This document shows positions 14,554 to 26,132 of a stretch of DNA of 36,436 bases, piece by piece. The position numbers and the translations under genes were made by a program. The notes below the pieces were generated by a model, which was not told the origin of the DNA, searched no databases, and saw only the letters and a list, made by a program, of their open reading frames with translations. Position 1 is the first letter of the stretch, and each line of letters starts with the position of its first letter. Source of the stretch: a virus; the IMG/VR virus record IMGVR_UViG_3300027714_000051, positions 1-36,436 of that record; one strand, written 5' to 3'.

Positions 14554-15121
14554 GTTCGTCCTTCAATTCTTCTTTAACTTTTAGTTTTCTAGCTTCAAAT
14601 TTTGTTTCTAAAGAGTCTTTAGATTCTCCACCAGTCCATTCTTCGATATCACCTGCTTCTGTAATGAATCTATTAGCATCCATACCATTTAAAAATTCCT
14701 GATACTCCTCAGTCATTTGGTGTATCCATACTTCATTACTAGATTGGTTAACCTTATTGACATACTCATCATATTTACCAGCACTTCTAAGATCTTTTTC
14801 GAATTTGACAAGACAGTTAGGACAAAAACCAAATTTTCTATATATTTTTTTATATGCTGGATGAGTCATTCGAGGATCTTCACATTTTGGACATGTCAAG
14901 GGTATTTGAATGGCTTTTCTAGCTTCATCTAATTTATTTACGGTTTGTTTTATCCCATTTTTAATAGTCCAAGTTTTATTCGATTCTTCCCATACATCAC
15001 CTTCAACATGCTTAGATTTTTTTACTACGAACCCTGTCTGGACTCTTGTTGTAGCACCATAGTTTCCAGAAACGAGGTTTCTCATTCTCTGAATTTTATC
15101 TTTTGAAAATTGTTTACTCAT
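14537..15121 (-). CDS. Zinc-binding protein of unknown function (194 aa)
   Basis: A basic N-terminus (MSKQFSKDKIQRMRNLVSGN) is followed by EGDVWEESNKTWTIKNGIKQ and a treble-clef-like four-cysteine pair: CPKC (77-80) and CPNC (100-103), which could bind one zinc. The C-terminal 60 residues are acidic and helical. This layout recurs next to the terminase region in T4-like marine phages. It overlaps the stop of the two-kinase gene (TAATG) and the start of the holin gene. It could bind nucleic acid or protein; the sequence does not decide this. Confidence 0.75.
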   Translation of the reverse strand: MSKQFSKDKIQRMRNLVSGNYGATTRVQTGFVVKKSKHVEGDVWEESNKTWTIKNGIKQTVNKLDEARKAIQIPLTCPKCEDPRMTHPAYKKIYRKFGFCPNCLVKFEKDLRSAGKYDEYVNKVNQSSNEVWIHQMTEEYQEFLNGMDANRFITEAGDIEEWTGGESKDSLETKFEARKLKVKEELKDEHEHSK

Positions 15122-17028
15122 TATAACCCTTTTGCTTGCTTAATCCATTTCAAAGCTTCTTTATTCTTAACTGGTTTTTTGATAAACTTCATTACAGATG
15201 CTACAACTGAAGAAGGTAGCTGATCTCCAATATCTTTATCCGTATTTATATTAATAAAATTCGAACCAAATGCAGATTTGTAAGTTTTAAAATTGTCTTG
15301 GACTTTTTGCCACGTTCTTTGTACTACCTTATCTAATAACGATCTATCAGTTCTTTTTTTATTTCTTGCCAAAGCAGTTTCTAGGGTTGTATCTACAAAG
15401 ATCATATATGTATCATAACCCAACTCTTCTATTGACTTCTTTTTAGCAAGTAATACATTAGAAGATCCGCCAGTCCCATCAATTATTATGCCAAGTTTAC
15501 CATCTAGATAATTATCCATTTGTATTTGTGCAATCTTTCTAGCCTTACCCATAAGCTTGCCATCAAGGCTTCGTTCTTCATCAGTTAGATCATCGGAAGA
15601 TGCTGGCAGGTTATGTTTCTTTTTTAGAAATTCATAAGACTGATCCAGATTAACTATTTTTAGACCTGTCTTTGTCAATGATGATTTAACTTTCTTGGCA
15701 GGAGGTATACCGAATATTTTATCAATAACCGTAGATTTGCCAGATCCAGGACCTCCAGCTAAGAACACTGCTTTAAAGGTATATTTGTCCTGTACAGCCT
15801 CTTTAAGGGGGTTTTTAACGACTTTATTAGGTTCCTTCACATTCTCTCCATCTGGAGTAACTGGCTTTTTGGCAACTTCCATATCTTTGAATGATAGAAA
15901 TTTAACTCCGAATGCTTTGGCTATTTTACGGATCTGAGTCTTCCATAACTCATAAGCTATAGTGGCTTTATAATCTTGGGAATTGGTTGGAGTTGTCTTA
16001 CCAGGAACTCCTGCTGGGAAATATGTATTAGCTGGTATTACCCTATCCGAATGGAAAGCCTCGAAGTCACTTCCACCCATAGCATAATCAACTATTTTCC
16101 AACCTATCAGGTCAGACATCTTTTGAGAATAGTTTTTGTAAGCTCCGGAGGATTTGAAAAAGGTTCCTGGACCATCATCAACGTGATGAGTACTAGTTGC
16201 ATTTTCTAAAAAGAAATCTAAATCATTTTCAGTTATACCTTCTATAATACTTTTCAAAACTATACTTTCACCAAGATTTAATTTTGGATAATCAGAAGGT
16301 ACATATTGAATTACACTTTCACCAAGAGATTTTAACTTTAATTGGTCTTGAACCCATTTCTTACCTATACGATTTTTTATGGGAGTCTTTACAAATTTCA
16401 TAGCATTACTTATCTTATCCGAGTGCATTTTGCTGAAGTCACCCATTTCGGAATTATCCACAATCATGAAATTACGACCAAATAAGGATTGGAATTTCCC
16501 CATATTATTTTGGACATCGGACCATGATTTCTTTACTAGGTCTTCAGGCAATATTCTTTCTCTTTTGGAATTTCTTTTTAATGCAATTTCTAAGGAAGTA
16601 TTTACAAAAACCATTGCAGTATCATAGCCGAGGGCTTCTAATTTTTTTCTACGCTTTTCTATTTTACCATAGTCATGACCTGTACCATCTATGATTAAAC
16701 CAAGTCGACCCTTTTCATATATAGCTTGGAGCTTCTTTTTCATCTCCTTACCTTTTTGTCTTGGATTATCTTTGCTTGTGGTATAATAGTTGAAAACTTT
16801 TTTAGTCATCTGACCTAAAGATTTTGGATCAACACCTCTTTTCTTAAGGAAGTGTTCAAATGCAGGATCTGAGTTTACTACTTTAAGACCTACTGCTGAA
16901 GTTCCTTTCATTATATCGTCAATACCAAATATCTGGTTTGCACTATAAGATTTTCCAGAACCTGGCCCACCAGCTAGAAATACTGCTTTTAAAATTCCGG
17001 GATCGTATACGCCTTCTAATAAATCCAT
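15121..17028 (-). CDS. Tandem P-loop kinase protein (zeta-toxin/AAA_33-like)
   Basis: Two related P-loop kinase domains of the zeta-toxin or polynucleotide-kinase-like class lie in one 635-aa protein. Domain 1 (about residues 10-240) has GGPGSGKS (20-27), a NSDPAFEH strand, GLIIDGTGHD with a lid region, and FVNTSLEIALKRN. Domain 2 (about 410-635) repeats all of these: GGPGSGKS (about 424-431), IVNLDQSYEF, GIIIDGTGGS and FVDTTLETALARN. Between them lies a distinct module of about 160 residues containing ENATSTHHVDDGPGTFFKSS that I do not recognise. The two domains look like an internal duplication. Substrate may be nucleic acid, nucleotide or a cell-wall sugar. The start has AGGA upstream and a class I element before it. 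Confidence 0.82.
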   Translation of the reverse strand: MDLLEGVYDPGILKAVFLAGGPGSGKSYSANQIFGIDDIMKGTSAVGLKVVNSDPAFEHFLKKRGVDPKSLGQMTKKVFNYYTTSKDNPRQKGKEMKKKLQAIYEKGRLGLIIDGTGHDYGKIEKRRKKLEALGYDTAMVFVNTSLEIALKRNSKRERILPEDLVKKSWSDVQNNMGKFQSLFGRNFMIVDNSEMGDFSKMHSDKISNAMKFVKTPIKNRIGKKWVQDQLKLKSLGESVIQYVPSDYPKLNLGESIVLKSIIEGITENDLDFFLENATSTHHVDDGPGTFFKSSGAYKNYSQKMSDLIGWKIVDYAMGGSDFEAFHSDRVIPANTYFPAGVPGKTTPTNSQDYKATIAYELWKTQIRKIAKAFGVKFLSFKDMEVAKKPVTPDGENVKEPNKVVKNPLKEAVQDKYTFKAVFLAGGPGSGKSTVIDKIFGIPPAKKVKSSLTKTGLKIVNLDQSYEFLKKKHNLPASSDDLTDEERSLDGKLMGKARKIAQIQMDNYLDGKLGIIIDGTGGSSNVLLAKKKSIEELGYDTYMIFVDTTLETALARNKKRTDRSLLDKVVQRTWQKVQDNFKTYKSAFGSNFININTDKDIGDQLPSSVVASVMKFIKKPVKNKEALKWIKQAKGL

Positions 17029-18989: not shown

Positions 18990-21374
18990 TTATATGTAAA
19001 TATATATTTCACCAGAATCTATTCTAATGTTACCTTTGTGGTCTGCTAAAGCGGTTACAGCTGCAGCTTCATTTCCTTCAATAACACCACCGACCCAGTA
19101 TCCTGCTGTTGCTGTATTGTCAGTTAGAGCTACACCATGAGCAACTCCTAAACGTCCATCATTACCATTATAAGATCCATCCCAGAATAAAGAGTCTCCT
19201 TCAACTCCAAGACCTGCACCAAATATAAGACCAGCATCGGTATCGGTTCCTGAAGCTCCAGATCCTAAAGCTAAGAATGCGTCTTCTATAGTTACATTGG
19301 TAGTATTAACAGTTGTTGTTATTCCAGTAACCGTTAAGTTTGGTACAGTAAGAGTTCCTGTATGTAATTGAGCACCATTATCATCTATTTCAAACCTTAG
19401 GGTATTATTGGTTTTAAATTGAATTTCTGAATCAGTTCCAAAATCAATATAATCTGTAGTTGTTGAACGTCCAAGCTTTAAATCTGACTTAGTAATGGTT
19501 TTAACAGTTGTTAGAACGTCGTCAAGACTTAGTGCGCTACCATTACCAGCTGCAACAGATAAGCCATTTCCTGCATTTACAGACATTGTTACATCACCTG
19601 AAAGACCACCGCCTGACATACCTTGTCCAGCTGTTACTGAACTAATGTCTCCAGTACCTGTACCATACCCTTGATCGGTAACAAAATCATGTACTGCATC
19701 ACCAGTTACTAAAGCTGTTGAACCATTGGTAACAGAAGATGCTGTCGTAACATTAACAAGAGCAGTTAATCCTAAATCACCAGCAACTTGTGCAAATGTT
19801 TTTGATTCTAAACCAGTGGATGTGAATTTAGCATACTGTCCAGAAGTTCCAGTAGATCCCATTTTAACAATATTACCACTTGCAATACCAATTGCTGTTG
19901 ATGTAATTGAACCGGTTCCAGCACCTATTAGAACTTGACCAGAACTTAATGTAGAAACTCCTGTACCACCATCTGCTACCGGTACATCATTACCACCTGC
20001 ACGATAGATAATGTTGCTCTCAATTTGTAAATCTCCAGAAGATGGACTACTAAGAGTATTATTTGAGGCGTGTCCAAAATTAACTGCTGTAAATTGTGGA
20101 GAATCACCTGTACCTACACCGATACTAGTTCTTAATGTATCACCAGATTCTGCAACAGGATCTGCTGAACCATCCCCAACGATCATTTGACCATCAGTTA
20201 ATACAGCCATTGCGGTTATTGCTCCGCCGCCACTACCTAATAATATACCACCATCGGTTAATGTAGAAACTCCTGTACCACCATATCCAACAGCTAGACT
20301 ATTATTGGTTAAAATTAGGGATCCTGAAATTGTTACATCCCCATCATTGAATGAAGATGCACCATTAAATACTTGAGTGTTATTACCACCGACTGCACCG
20401 AATACATTTGAACCAGTACTTGTTAGAGCAGCAGTTTCTGTAAAACTAACTCCATTGAATATTAATGAACCAGTCATTGTAGCATTACCAGTTACATTAA
20501 GTGTTGAAGTGTTTATTGTAGAACCAGAAATAGTCCCTGTAGAGGTTATGTTTCCTGTTGTACTGATTGCAATATCATTAGCAAGATGGGCTGTATCTAT
20601 TGAGCCATCTACATATTGGGCTGAATCAATAGAATTAGCTGACATATGAGCTAAGTCAATTGCACCATCAGCAATTTGTGCAGAGTCAATAGCATCATCT
20701 GCCATCAACGCATTTGTAATTTGGTCGTTAGCTATATGGGCTGTATCAATCGACCCAGCAGCATAATGTTCGCTGTCGATAGCATCATCAGCTATATGTT
20801 CATTATCAATACTTCCAGCAGCATAGTGCTCACTATTAATTACATTGTCACCAATCTTAGCTGCTGTTACTGAATCTGCTCCTAGTGCTGTAGTATCTAC
20901 AGAACCCGCAGCATAATGTTCAGTATCAATAGAATCCGCTGCATAGTGTTCAGAATCTATAGCATTGTCTGCTATTTTAGATCCATCAACTGAGTCTGCT
21001 GATAAATGTGCTAGATCAATTGAACCATCTACATATTGGTCTGAATCAACTGAGTTAACTGACATATGTTCTAAGTCAATTGCACCAGCAGCAATTTGAC
21101 CAGAGTCAATACCATCAGTCTTAACACTTATTGTCCTTGCAACAGAGCCGTCAAAGGTCGTTCCTGAATCTAGGCTAAGTGTGGAGTCGTCGACAGTTAA
21201 TGACTGTGATGTTGTACCAGCACCAGCTATACTAGACTGAATTGTCGAAGTTACAACCCCGGCGGAGTCTATTATTAATACTTCAGCAGTTGAAGCTGCC
21301 GCTTGTTCTGGTATAGTTAACCCGCTTAAGACGGCTGAGCTGCCTGATACTATTACTTTTTTCCATTCTGCCAT
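18990..21374 (-). CDS. Tail fibre with 18 decapeptide repeats
   Basis: A 794-aa fibre. It starts MAEWKKVIVSGSSAVL, an attachment module shared with the 506-aa fibre. Residues 88-267 form about 18 tandem ten-residue units of the type SIDSEHYAAG, a pattern common in the shafts of phage tail fibres. The following part has a repeated GGTGVSTL unit, as in VADGGTGVSTLSSGQVLIGA, which occurs twice or more and alternates with GAxG blocks. Near residues 290-340 a MTGSLIFNGVSFTETAA stretch resembles the first residues of the truncated fibre at the window edge. The C-terminus ends NTATAGYWVGGVIEGN and then IRIDSGEIYIYI, a beta-rich tip. Likely forms trimers; receptor unknown. Confidence 0.85.
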   Translation of the reverse strand: MAEWKKVIVSGSSAVLSGLTIPEQAAASTAEVLIIDSAGVVTSTIQSSIAGAGTTSQSLTVDDSTLSLDSGTTFDGSVARTISVKTDGIDSGQIAAGAIDLEHMSVNSVDSDQYVDGSIDLAHLSADSVDGSKIADNAIDSEHYAADSIDTEHYAAGSVDTTALGADSVTAAKIGDNVINSEHYAAGSIDNEHIADDAIDSEHYAAGSIDTAHIANDQITNALMADDAIDSAQIADGAIDLAHMSANSIDSAQYVDGSIDTAHLANDIAISTTGNITSTGTISGSTINTSTLNVTGNATMTGSLIFNGVSFTETAALTSTGSNVFGAVGGNNTQVFNGASSFNDGDVTISGSLILTNNSLAVGYGGTGVSTLTDGGILLGSGGGAITAMAVLTDGQMIVGDGSADPVAESGDTLRTSIGVGTGDSPQFTAVNFGHASNNTLSSPSSGDLQIESNIIYRAGGNDVPVADGGTGVSTLSSGQVLIGAGTGSITSTAIGIASGNIVKMGSTGTSGQYAKFTSTGLESKTFAQVAGDLGLTALVNVTTASSVTNGSTALVTGDAVHDFVTDQGYGTGTGDISSVTAGQGMSGGGLSGDVTMSVNAGNGLSVAAGNGSALSLDDVLTTVKTITKSDLKLGRSTTTDYIDFGTDSEIQFKTNNTLRFEIDDNGAQLHTGTLTVPNLTVTGITTTVNTTNVTIEDAFLALGSGASGTDTDAGLIFGAGLGVEGDSLFWDGSYNGNDGRLGVAHGVALTDNTATAGYWVGGVIEGNEAAAVTALADHKGNIRIDSGEIYIYI
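20574..21113 (-). repeat. Tandem 30-bp coding repeat (18 decapeptides) in fibre gene
   Basis: Eighteen consecutive ten-codon units, mostly of the type (A/S)IDxxHYAAG or (A/S)IDxAxIAxx. Units 2-4 and units 16-18 are nearly identical, which suggests a block duplication. Base sequences have drifted, so the repeat is clear at protein level and only partly in DNA. Confidence 0.85.
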
Positions 21375-23330: not shown

Positions 23331-23720
23331 TTATCCCTTAGTTACTTCAGGAGATAATACTATTGAACCTTGTAAAAGTCTTGAGACCGTTGTGTCTGAA
23401 TTTCTTGTTATTTCTAAATCATAAACTGCACTGGTGAAAGTATAAGCTGTTGTGGTAGTTGCAGATATATTTAACTCTATAGTACCCTTGGTTGCAGAAC
23501 CAGATGATGCAATGATTGATAATCCTTCACTACCAGTTACTGAAGCAGCTGACCCTGTAAAGCTGGATACAGCAGCTGAAGAAGTATATGTTTCTCGGAT
23601 TTCCATGCTTGCAGAATATCCACTAAGATCTACAGGAGATCCATCGGAATCCTTATAAGTAAATTGTTTAACTACTGTTGTACCTTGTTCTATTGTAAAG
23701 TTATATATACCTGCTGACAT
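23331..23720 (-). CDS. Small Ig-like fibre-associated protein (129 aa)
   Basis: A compact beta-sandwich-type protein: GIYNFTIEQGTTVVKQFTY and DGSPVDLSGYSASMEIRE at the N-terminus, then AVYDLEITRNSDTTVSRLLQ and GSIVLSPEVT at the C-terminus. The layout QGTT...FTY.DSDG.PVDLSGYSA.M.IRE...YDLEI....V.RLL.G.I.LSPEVT is widespread in phage structural proteins next to fibres. It has GAAGGA upstream of its ATG and a class I element about 25 bases before it. A role as a fibre joint or decoration is inferred. Confidence 0.75.
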   Translation of the reverse strand: MSAGIYNFTIEQGTTVVKQFTYKDSDGSPVDLSGYSASMEIRETYTSSAAVSSFTGSAASVTGSEGLSIIASSGSATKGTIELNISATTTTAYTFTSAVYDLEITRNSDTTVSRLLQGSIVLSPEVTKG

Positions 23721-23765: not shown

Positions 23766-24446
23766 TTAAACCCCTATTATGTTTGCTATGTTTGCTGCAG
23801 TTGTCCCTGCAACGGATGCAATATTACCAGCTATTGTTCCAGACACATCATGGCCATACCCTGTTACTACGGTATAGTCTATATATGGATCTGAACTGGT
23901 CCCTGAGTAATTAGTCATCCTAAAACCAGTTGAAAGATTAACATCAGATCCCGGGGCTGAGTCATTATAATCATAGTCATGGTGTACAATAGCAATTATG
24001 AATACATCATCATCTGTTATATCAGCTAATGCAGCTGCATTAAGGGTATAATTTTGATACTCACCTGTACCATTATTCGTTATCTCTGCAGAGTAAGCAG
24101 TTCCCCAAGTTACATTATTAAAATCAGCATCTGCTAATGAGGTGCCACCATCTCCACCAAATGCTGTACTTTTTAATATAATGTATGATTCAGTATTAGA
24201 GCTCCATCGTAATTTTAAAGTAGCTTCAGACAACGTTCCTGTTATACCTGACGTATCAAAGTACATAAAAACTCTACCTATTTTGTAAGTAGCTCCACCC
24301 CTACCACTAGATCTAAAGATTAAAGGGGCATCAGTGGTATTATTTGTATCTGCAGTCCCTGAGGTTTTATCTCTAGCTGCATCCCAGCTAGCCTCATTAC
24401 CAGTTGTTATAACACCATCATTAGTATTTGAATACACCGTAGCCAT
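23766..24446 (-). CDS. Appendage protein with DNRLRE-like beta domain (226 aa)
   Basis: The segment IGRVFMYFDTSGI followed by LSEATLKLRWSS (about residues 57-83) has the look of DNRLRE/CBM96-type carbohydrate-binding beta-sandwiches, where a strand with FD is followed by a LSxATLxL strand. PYIDYTVV at about 187 closes the domain. The C-terminal 30 residues repeat a short unit: VSGTIAGNIASVAGTTAANI and ANIIGV, a repeat seen at the end of many phage structural proteins. Sugar binding on the host surface is a reasonable guess. It overlaps the methyltransferase stop by one base. Confidence 0.72.
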   Translation of the reverse strand: MATVYSNTNDGVITTGNEASWDAARDKTSGTADTNNTTDAPLIFRSSGRGGATYKIGRVFMYFDTSGITGTLSEATLKLRWSSNTESYIILKSTAFGGDGGTSLADADFNNVTWGTAYSAEITNNGTGEYQNYTLNAAALADITDDDVFIIAIVHHDYDYNDSAPGSDVNLSTGFRMTNYSGTSSDPYIDYTVVTGYGHDVSGTIAGNIASVAGTTAANIANIIGV

Positions 24447-25006
24447 CAGAATTCCTTTTTAGGTAAATAATACTTATTTGAGTTATAATAGCTATTTATA
24501 GGTGGATTAATATCTATTTGTTCATACTCGACACCATCTATATCATGTATAGTAGTAGCGCTAGGACTGTTATTCCACCACGTTACTTTAGCATCTATAT
24601 TAACTAATGAAGATATAACACTTCCAAACCTACTCCAATCATCTTCCCCGTATGTATCGTAAAACACTCCATCATAAGTAGATAAAGAATCTTTTATATC
24701 AAACCATTCACCTTCTACTATTACTACATTAGATTTCCCTTCAGCCCATTCCCTAGCCTTCGCCAATACTTGGGGATGACACTCCACAATTGTATGAGAG
24801 TTAATAGAATTCTCTTGAATATATCCTGCAGATATACCCATCCCAAATCCTAACTCTAATATATCCCCACCATTAGAGCATACATAATCAGCAGAAGCTT
24901 TCATTATAGAGGATTCCCAATCCATCATCACTTCAAAAGTATTATCTCCATCAGTATAATAAATTTTATCACTTTCGAAAGTTAATGTTTTACCAGTATA
25001 GGCCAT
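24446..25006 (-). CDS. SAM methyltransferase, guanidinoacetate/arginine (GAMT/RMT2)-like
   Basis: A 186-aa Rossmann-type methyltransferase with striking similarity to GAMT, which methylates guanidinoacetate to creatine, and RMT2, which methylates arginine. VMMDWESSIM (residues 26-35) parallels VMERWETPYM of human GAMT and keeps the substrate-binding Glu (Glu31). ILELGFGMGISA (49-60) is the SAM loop, and HTIVECHPQVL (71-81) supplies the acidic residue (Glu75) for the SAM ribose. VVIVEGEWFDI and DGVFYDTYGE (112-121) retain the Asp (117) that in GAMT contacts the guanidino group. The C-terminal INPPINSYYN parallels VPPADCRYY. It is shorter than GAMT (236 aa), lacking about 35 residues near the end. 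It sits between two fibre genes, so the substrate may be a fibre arginine or a small guanidine compound. Confidence 0.85.
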   Translation of the reverse strand: MAYTGKTLTFESDKIYYTDGDNTFEVMMDWESSIMKASADYVCSNGGDILELGFGMGISAGYIQENSINSHTIVECHPQVLAKAREWAEGKSNVVIVEGEWFDIKDSLSTYDGVFYDTYGEDDWSRFGSVISSLVNIDAKVTWWNNSPSATTIHDIDGVEYEQIDINPPINSYYNSNKYYLPKKEF

Positions 25007-25007
25007 A

Positions 25008-26132
25008 TTAACTTACTTCTATCCATGTATTATCAGGATTAAAATATATTGTTTGACTACCGCTCATATGATATCCAACGATCCTATTTATTTTACCAGA
25101 CGTTGTTGATACTGCATTTGTCAACCTTCCTGTAGTTGTACTTAAATATACAGGAGCCCCTTTTGCCGTAGTACTATAGCTTGCAGCCATATAAACCAGA
25201 CCTCTAACACACATACCTACCTGAGCGTCATCTCCCATAGCTATAGCTAAAGAACCTGTTGAAACAGAACCTGCATTTGAAGCTAGAGTCCAAGTGCCAT
25301 CACACAGAGAATAGATATTACCTTGAGTAGTTCCCTGGGATACATCCCAATAAATAATATCGCCATTTGCGTTGTCATTCAAATTATTAGTTTGTCGACC
25401 TAATTGCAAATCTCTATGTTTAAACTTCCCAGTTAATGTTGAAGCAATTATATCACCACTTGCGCTTATATTACCTGAGGCTGTTATATGAGATGAAAAA
25501 TCTGCACCAGTCTCATCTATTGTAAGTAATGTAGCTGTTCTGTCTTTAAAGATATGTTGGCCTACTTCATCTCCATCATTATCAGCTGTGTATATAATAT
25601 CAGAATCAGCTGATATGTTAAGAACTGCATCTGCTGAACCCCCTAAAGTTGAAACACCGGTTATTTCTCCATAAACCGTAATATTATCATTTCCACGATT
25701 AAATTTTATTACTGGTGTTCCAGTAGCATCATTATTATGTCTATATAATTTAAAATCATTATCTCCTCCATCATAATGCCAACGCATTCCATATGTTAGT
25801 GCATCGTTTTCAACAAAGAAATGATCGATATCCGGATTGTTATTTGAAGTGTCTGTTATTCTAAATAAATGTCCATCCAAAGGTGGTGAAGCTGTGTCTC
25901 CCGTAGATGTTACACTTAATTGGTTGAATGAACCTGTGAGGCCTGTTACTGTGCCACTTGCACTTATAGCTCCTGAGGCTGTTACGTCTGTAAAAGTATA
26001 ACTGCTTAAAACACTAGAACCAGAACCATAAAATAATTTCCCTGAATCCAGATTGATTGCCAACTCACCTTCTGATAAGCTTGACGGTACAGAAGATCCT
26101 GTACCTCTTTTTAATTGTATTGTTTGTGCCAT
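25008..26132 (-). CDS. Tail fibre with Mtd_N-like start and conserved C-terminal knob
   Basis: A 374-aa fibre. The N-terminus IQLKRGTGSSVPSSLSEGEL then AINLDSGKLFYG matches the N-terminal domain of the major tropism determinant family (Mtd_N), widespread at the base of phage receptor-binding proteins. The middle has TASGAISASGTVTGLTGSFN and ITASGNISASGDIIA stretches typical of this operon. The last ~75 residues, with MCVRGLVYMAASY, KGAPVYLSTTTGRLT and IYFNPDNTWIEVS, form a strand-rich C-terminal domain that recurs in marine phages. It starts after a class I element and AGGAAAG. Confidence 0.82.
   Translation of the reverse strand: MAQTIQLKRGTGSSVPSSLSEGELAINLDSGKLFYGSGSSVLSSYTFTDVTASGAISASGTVTGLTGSFNQLSVTSTGDTASPPLDGHLFRITDTSNNNPDIDHFFVENDALTYGMRWHYDGGDNDFKLYRHNNDATGTPVIKFNRGNDNITVYGEITGVSTLGGSADAVLNISADSDIIYTADNDGDEVGQHIFKDRTATLLTIDETGADFSSHITASGNISASGDIIASTLTGKFKHRDLQLGRQTNNLNDNANGDIIYWDVSQGTTQGNIYSLCDGTWTLASNAGSVSTGSLAIAMGDDAQVGMCVRGLVYMAASYSTTAKGAPVYLSTTTGRLTNAVSTTSGKINRIVGYHMSGSQTIYFNPDNTWIEVS

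Follow-up and report, generated by a model that had tools for sequence, protein, structure and literature searches.

A GAMT-type methyltransferase gene between tail-fibre and CBM96-like genes in phages

Results

The window, by which we mean the whole stretch of DNA analysed here, is a 36,436-base IMG/VR virus record of a marine phage with T4-like head genes, including a major head protein (PHROG 138, E 1.2e-69) and a portal (PHROG 213, E 5.6e-71). Its terminase shares 57% identity with that of Microcystis phage Mel-JY01 and 53% with that of Flavobacterium phage immuto. A close relative (L067) is binned with a Flavobacteriales genome, which for the window's own host is no more than a hint. On the minus strand of this window, a 186-codon gene lies tightly packed between a tail-fibre-like gene and a gene for a CBM96-like protein, with further tail-fibre-related genes in the same region (Table 1). 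It is a real gene, and a plus-strand reading of the same interval is ruled out by 8 stops. The original prediction had placed the open reading frame exactly and left out the strand, which is minus, and the one-base spacing or overlap it had described is found at both junctions. Elsewhere in the window, one 635-aa open reading frame (15121-17028, minus strand) consists of two P-loop kinase-like halves with AVFLAGGPGSGKS in each (PHROG 12810; polynucleotide-kinase-like).

Table 1 Features of the tail-fibre region of the window and the evidence for them
Feature	Position	Strand	Evidence
GAMT-superfamily SAM-dependent methyltransferase, 186 aa	24446..25006	-	PDB sequence and profile matches; AlphaFold2 and Foldseek; 89 viral relatives
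Junction: fibre stop TAA, one base, methyltransferase ATG	25004..25010	-	Sequence; gap of -4 to +5 nt in 73/86 relatives
Junction TGATG: start of CBM96-like gene overlaps methyltransferase stop by 1 base	24444..24448	-	Sequence; -13 to +5 nt in 86 relatives
Upstream tail-fibre-like protein, 374 aa: Mtd_N-like N-terminus and C-terminal domain (~250-374)	25008..26132	-	Pfam Mtd_N, relatives
Downstream CBM96/DNRLRE-like beta-sandwich protein, 226 aa; invariant R49 (GRGG), R58, D159	23766..24446	-	Homology, conservation, model
Next gene downstream, tail-fibre-assembly-like	23331..23720	-	PHROG 1084 (E 1.5e-25); PHROG 3304, L-shaped tail fiber protein assembly (E 9.5e-10)
Further tail fibre gene, same region	18990..21374	-	PHROG 892, tail fiber protein (E 5.6e-24)

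The neighbours had been described as sugar-binding-like and Mtd_N-type, and both descriptions stand, weakly so in Pfam. The upstream match to Mtd_N (E 6e-5) reaches 23.3 bits against a cut-off of 26.3, and a Flavobacterium phage homologue of this fibre is annotated as a tail fiber protein. The downstream protein is also below the Pfam cut-off, in its case for CBM96 (E 0.008, 16.4 bits versus 26), and a CBM96 match at E<=0.01 is found in 4 of 37 members of its family. Here the assignment is backed by a match to the DNRLRE domain, which is seen in 4/37 members (best E 1.2e-6), and by the fold. The top Foldseek matches of its model (pLDDT 87.9) are a chondroitin-sulfate CBM (8wab, E 9.5e-6) and an alginate-binding CBM96 domain (7vbo, E 2.9e-5), and the beta-sandwich matches at a TMq of ~0.5, so the folds are similar and not identical. 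The protein resembles these CBM96/DNRLRE modules in predicted fold and Arg/Lys spacing, but differs from them in its sub-threshold Pfam score and as a stand-alone phage protein with a C-terminal repeat. We propose it as the receptor- or glycan-binding part of the module and as a candidate substrate of the methyltransferase. The repeat itself (~residues 195-226, GYGNxVNGVxxANIxKVNGV...) is short and modelled with low confidence; in L194, L195 and L209, which represent another phage type, a DNAxFFGxNF-type ending replaces it.

Sequence and structure searches place the 186-aa protein in one family. A phmmer search against the PDB matched GAMT (3orh) at E 2.5e-18 together with three more GAMT sequences, and all other matches were above 0.03; by this search the resemblance to GAMT is not due to chance. 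A profile built from 25 phage proteins matched GAMT in the PDB at E 1.3e-23. The AlphaFold2 model has a mean pLDDT of 91.6 and a pTM of 0.90, and GAMTs take Foldseek ranks 1-5 (E 9.7e-15 to 1.1e-12, TM up to 0.85 by query length), with the next match at E 3e-7. By profile, fold and residue tests the protein is a member of the GAMT superfamily, as had been proposed: its best profile match is to GAMT and not to an unrelated methyltransferase family, and the SAM pocket is kept in the predicted structure. An assignment as a generic methyltransferase only is ruled out by the specificity of the GAMT match in both the PDB sequence search and Foldseek. As to kinship with PRMT1-9, no PRMT chain appeared among the PDB sequence matches or the top 50 fold matches. 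A role in a defence system was also considered and rejected, as the only PADLOC match was a weak one (E 8e-4) covering a stretch of the mad2 profile, and the gene order speaks against such a role. In Pfam the methyltransferase match stays under its cut-off, and none of the PHROGs matches significantly, which means that the relationship to GAMT would escape standard annotation.

The segments VMMDWE, ILELGFGMG, VECHP and FYDTYG are all present in the protein, and Glu31, Glu75 and Asp117 are where the original prediction had put them. Ten residues (M27, W30, E31, M35, E51, G53, G55, E75, W87 and D117) are invariant in 89/89 distinct viral proteins. By residue counting on the profile alignment, E31 and D117 align with human GAMT E46 and D135, which are E45 and D134 in the rat enzyme, and E75 aligns with the SAM-ribose-binding Glu of GAMT. 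In animals GAMT makes creatine by methylating a guanidine group, and its E45 binds the guanidinium. In the published mechanism of GAMT, D134 is the proton acceptor (PMC12471008). The dN/dS between close pairs of phage methyltransferases is 0.03-0.32, which points to purifying selection. Besides these acids, the phage protein shares its fold and the VM..WE and GFGM motifs with GAMT (PDB 3orh, 1xcj, 1khh), but it is shorter at both ends, belongs to a separate clade and is encoded in an adhesion module. Its N-terminus is 15 residues shorter. The C-terminus, counted after the residues aligned to the substrate-carboxylate loop, is ~25 residues shorter (41 residues after the aligned Asn versus 66 in 3orh), which agrees with the missing C-terminal segment noted earlier; the full-length pocket-closing C-terminal part of GAMT proper is absent. 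In one relative (L028, 5001-5612) the shortened C-terminal loop contains an insertion of 16 residues (LELISPGRLLFENMLP).

An alignment-based scan of IMG/VR yielded 385 viral relatives, the best 80 of which were retained. Among annotated phages, a relative is present only in the 635-kb uncultured phage LR745206 (43% identity), and a viral scan with the cellular short form L078 as query found no viral relative. Bacterial members have motifs in common with the phage protein at 24-33% identity in the alignment (for example L078, L071 and L077; L081 and L093), but are longer at the C-terminus, have in many cases His for D117 and are located in chromosomes or nonribosomal peptide synthetases (NRPSs). 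They comprise a short D-type group (Bacteroidota, Desulfonema, Chitinispirillaceae), an actinomycete/Thiothrix group and a large third group with His in place of D117, made up of flavobacterial stand-alone proteins and of domains fused to NRPSs. In a maximum-likelihood tree all 16 phage rows are on one side of a branch with 98/92 support and human GAMT is among the cellular proteins, which sets the phage proteins apart as a single clade, distinct from GAMT and from the cellular relatives; L063 sits on a long branch and its exact place is unsure. Among the open-access papers searched, none describes a phage GAMT-type enzyme. The GAMT family is known; the phage subfamily, which has a shortened C-terminus and sits in an adhesion module, appears to be undescribed. 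On the cellular side, GAMT-like domains are fused to the C-terminal part of NRPSs in L081, L083, L093, L111 and L073, and stand-alone flavobacterial forms of ~263 aa occur in, for example, L068, L070, L074, L076 and L084-L090; both forms have His (FFHTYP or FFHAFP) at the position of GAMT's catalytic Asp.

Surroundings were counted over 89 non-redundant viral loci; because these loci are related, they should not be read as so many independent events. The upstream gene is on the same strand in all 86 readable loci, overlaps the methyltransferase by 1 nt in 50 and is never more than 45 nt away. Upstream proteins match the window fibre in 74/86 loci, mostly through its C-terminal 120 residues; this C-terminal domain is found at the end of 75 upstream genes, and the upstream open reading frames are up to ~1,790 aa long. 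Downstream, 86 of 87 loci have a same-strand gene at -13 to +5 nt, which in 85 of 87 is homologous to the CBM96-like protein of the window. The proposed tail-fibre operon setting is thus strongly supported, and it is kept across divergent phages. In megaphage LR745206 the methyltransferase is directly behind fibre-like open reading frames, and in L062 and L063 (37-38% identity) it is directly behind small, structural-looking open reading frames that have no PHROG match. These two and L066, the most divergent members, are without the CBM partner. In L194, L209 and L255 the methyltransferase directly precedes a CBM-like gene and is combined with a different fibre type, the upstream fibre-like open reading frame of L194 and L209 having an unrelated C-terminus. 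All GAMT-like genes seen in the examined viral loci were in settings of this kind. In L062 the most divergent methyltransferase is preceded by a long low-complexity repeat region (261-1943) that is possibly collagen-like in another frame.

The enzyme does not accompany every such pair. Four records contain no methyltransferase and have the CBM homologue straight after the fibre: L193 and L254, with the window-type fibre, and L195 and L252, with the other type. The records could be incomplete, but their local junctions are intact. Since the junction is found without the methyltransferase in two fibre types, the gene is an optional cassette of the adhesion module whose gain or loss takes place at a single fixed site, and the fibre/CBM pair can do without the enzyme. 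The median identity of random pairs is 61% for the methyltransferase versus 33% for the CBM partner, as would be expected for an enzyme with one fixed chemistry.

Discussion

We give about an even chance to the reading that the protein is catalytically active as a SAM-dependent GAMT-superfamily N-methyltransferase, that it is an optional part of an aquatic-phage tail-adhesion module and that it most likely methylates an arginine guanidino nitrogen of a neighbouring protein. It would be made by translational coupling with the fibre and the CBM96-like protein, and an arginine on one of these two would be the most likely target. E31 and D117 would bind the guanidinium and take up its proton, the roles of E45 and D134 in GAMT, in an active site that is probably more open because the C-terminal segment is shortened. 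Methylation could lower the hydrogen bonding or polarity of arginine and so tune adhesin assembly, stability or glycan binding; on a glycan-binding or structural arginine it may alter hydrogen bonding at the receptor contact or the fibre surface. Arginine methylation does occur in virions, given that independent proteomics of free virions of Cellulophaga phage phi18:1, for which no methyltransferase is known, reported a putative tail fibre with dimethyl-arginine (PMC13288928). Delta-N methylation of a guanidine likewise has a precedent, in the GAMT-like enzyme BlsL (PMC5572114). A bolder form of this reading, which we regard as tentative and somewhat doubtful, is that a phage protein arginine methyltransferase, possibly a delta-N one, modifies its own receptor-binding module and sets the grip of the CBM96-like adhesin on acidic polysaccharides, in which case it would be the first dedicated virion-modifying one. 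Yeast Rmt2, a protein arginine delta-N-methyltransferase, is a protein-acting relative of GAMT; it has an N-terminal extension and the 186-aa phage protein is without one.

An unlikely alternative is that the enzyme methylates a small guanidine (arginine, guanidinoacetate, agmatine or similar) and alters host metabolism, its place in the fibre operon being an accident of late expression. The nearest characterised relatives, GAMT and BlsL (PMC5572114), do use small molecules, and the residues aligned to the substrate-carboxylate loop of GAMT (~N145-S147) and the PPxNxY C-terminal motif are retained. BlsL, which we set beside the phage enzyme by description, is a GAMT-like enzyme of blasticidin S biosynthesis that acts on a nucleoside antibiotic intermediate by delta-N methylation of an internal guanidino nitrogen (PMC5572114). 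However, the ~25 C-terminal residues absent relative to GAMT and the constant order of the gene and the fibre/CBM pair across most loci both argue against a small-molecule substrate. Furthermore, metabolic genes were not noticed adjoining the methyltransferase in the viral loci inspected, nor, in this general inspection, was a creatine-pathway partner noticed nearby.

We consider it about equally unlikely that a GAMT-fold enzyme has switched to another virion or receptor target, such as an N-terminus, Lys, Asp/Glu, or a sugar or amine of the CBM-bound glycan. The separation of the phage clade from GAMT and cellular relatives would fit such a switch, and the change of D117 to His (FFHTYP) in a cellular group that includes the NRPS-fused forms suggests that the target chemistry of the fold can change, but both guanidinium-binding acids are kept throughout the 89 phage proteins. 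Very improbable is a non-catalytic pseudo-enzyme that serves the fibre module in assembly or as a structural subunit, a reading which would fit the constant co-encoding with putative virion proteins and the tight coupling with 1-nt overlaps, but not the SAM-binding motif and catalytic acids, strictly conserved unlike those of pseudo-enzymes, nor the same fibre/CBM pairs occurring without the methyltransferase.

For methylation of a neighbouring protein, the most conspicuous arginines are in the CBM partner. R49, in a GRGG-like turn, and R58 are invariant in 86 proteins of ~35% identity, D159 is invariant in a 37-sequence alignment, and in the region of the GRGG arginine R is followed by G or S in 82/82. 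GRGG is a classical methylation context of eukaryotic PRMT substrates. In CBM96, K27 and R36 are ligand residues, and R36E abolishes binding (PMC9971899). The R49-R58 spacing of 9 residues equals that of K27 and R36, a match that rests on spacing and fold and not on a sequence alignment, and the simplest reading is that R49 and R58 bind an acidic glycan. Their conservation can be explained without methylation, because CBM96-like glycan binding would account for it, and both arginines are retained in the four methyltransferase-free modules L193, L195, L252 and L254. We therefore rejected the GRGG arginine as proof of a substrate. R350 in the C-terminal part of the fibre was rejected for the same purpose, as it is conserved without the enzyme too, in methyltransferase-free immuto and L193.

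The methyl-arginines reported on a putative phage tail fibre in free virions had no phage methyltransferase to account for them (PMC13288928), and the phage gene family described here has a suitable fold and suitable residues and is kept beside host-recognition genes. If the adhesin is modified, host recognition would be set by an enzymatic modification in addition to the sequence. The same fibre/CBM pair is found with and without the methyltransferase at the same junction, in L194 versus L195 and in window-type loci versus L193 and L254, which amounts to a natural comparison of gain and loss. Such paired modules make the idea of adhesin modification directly testable.
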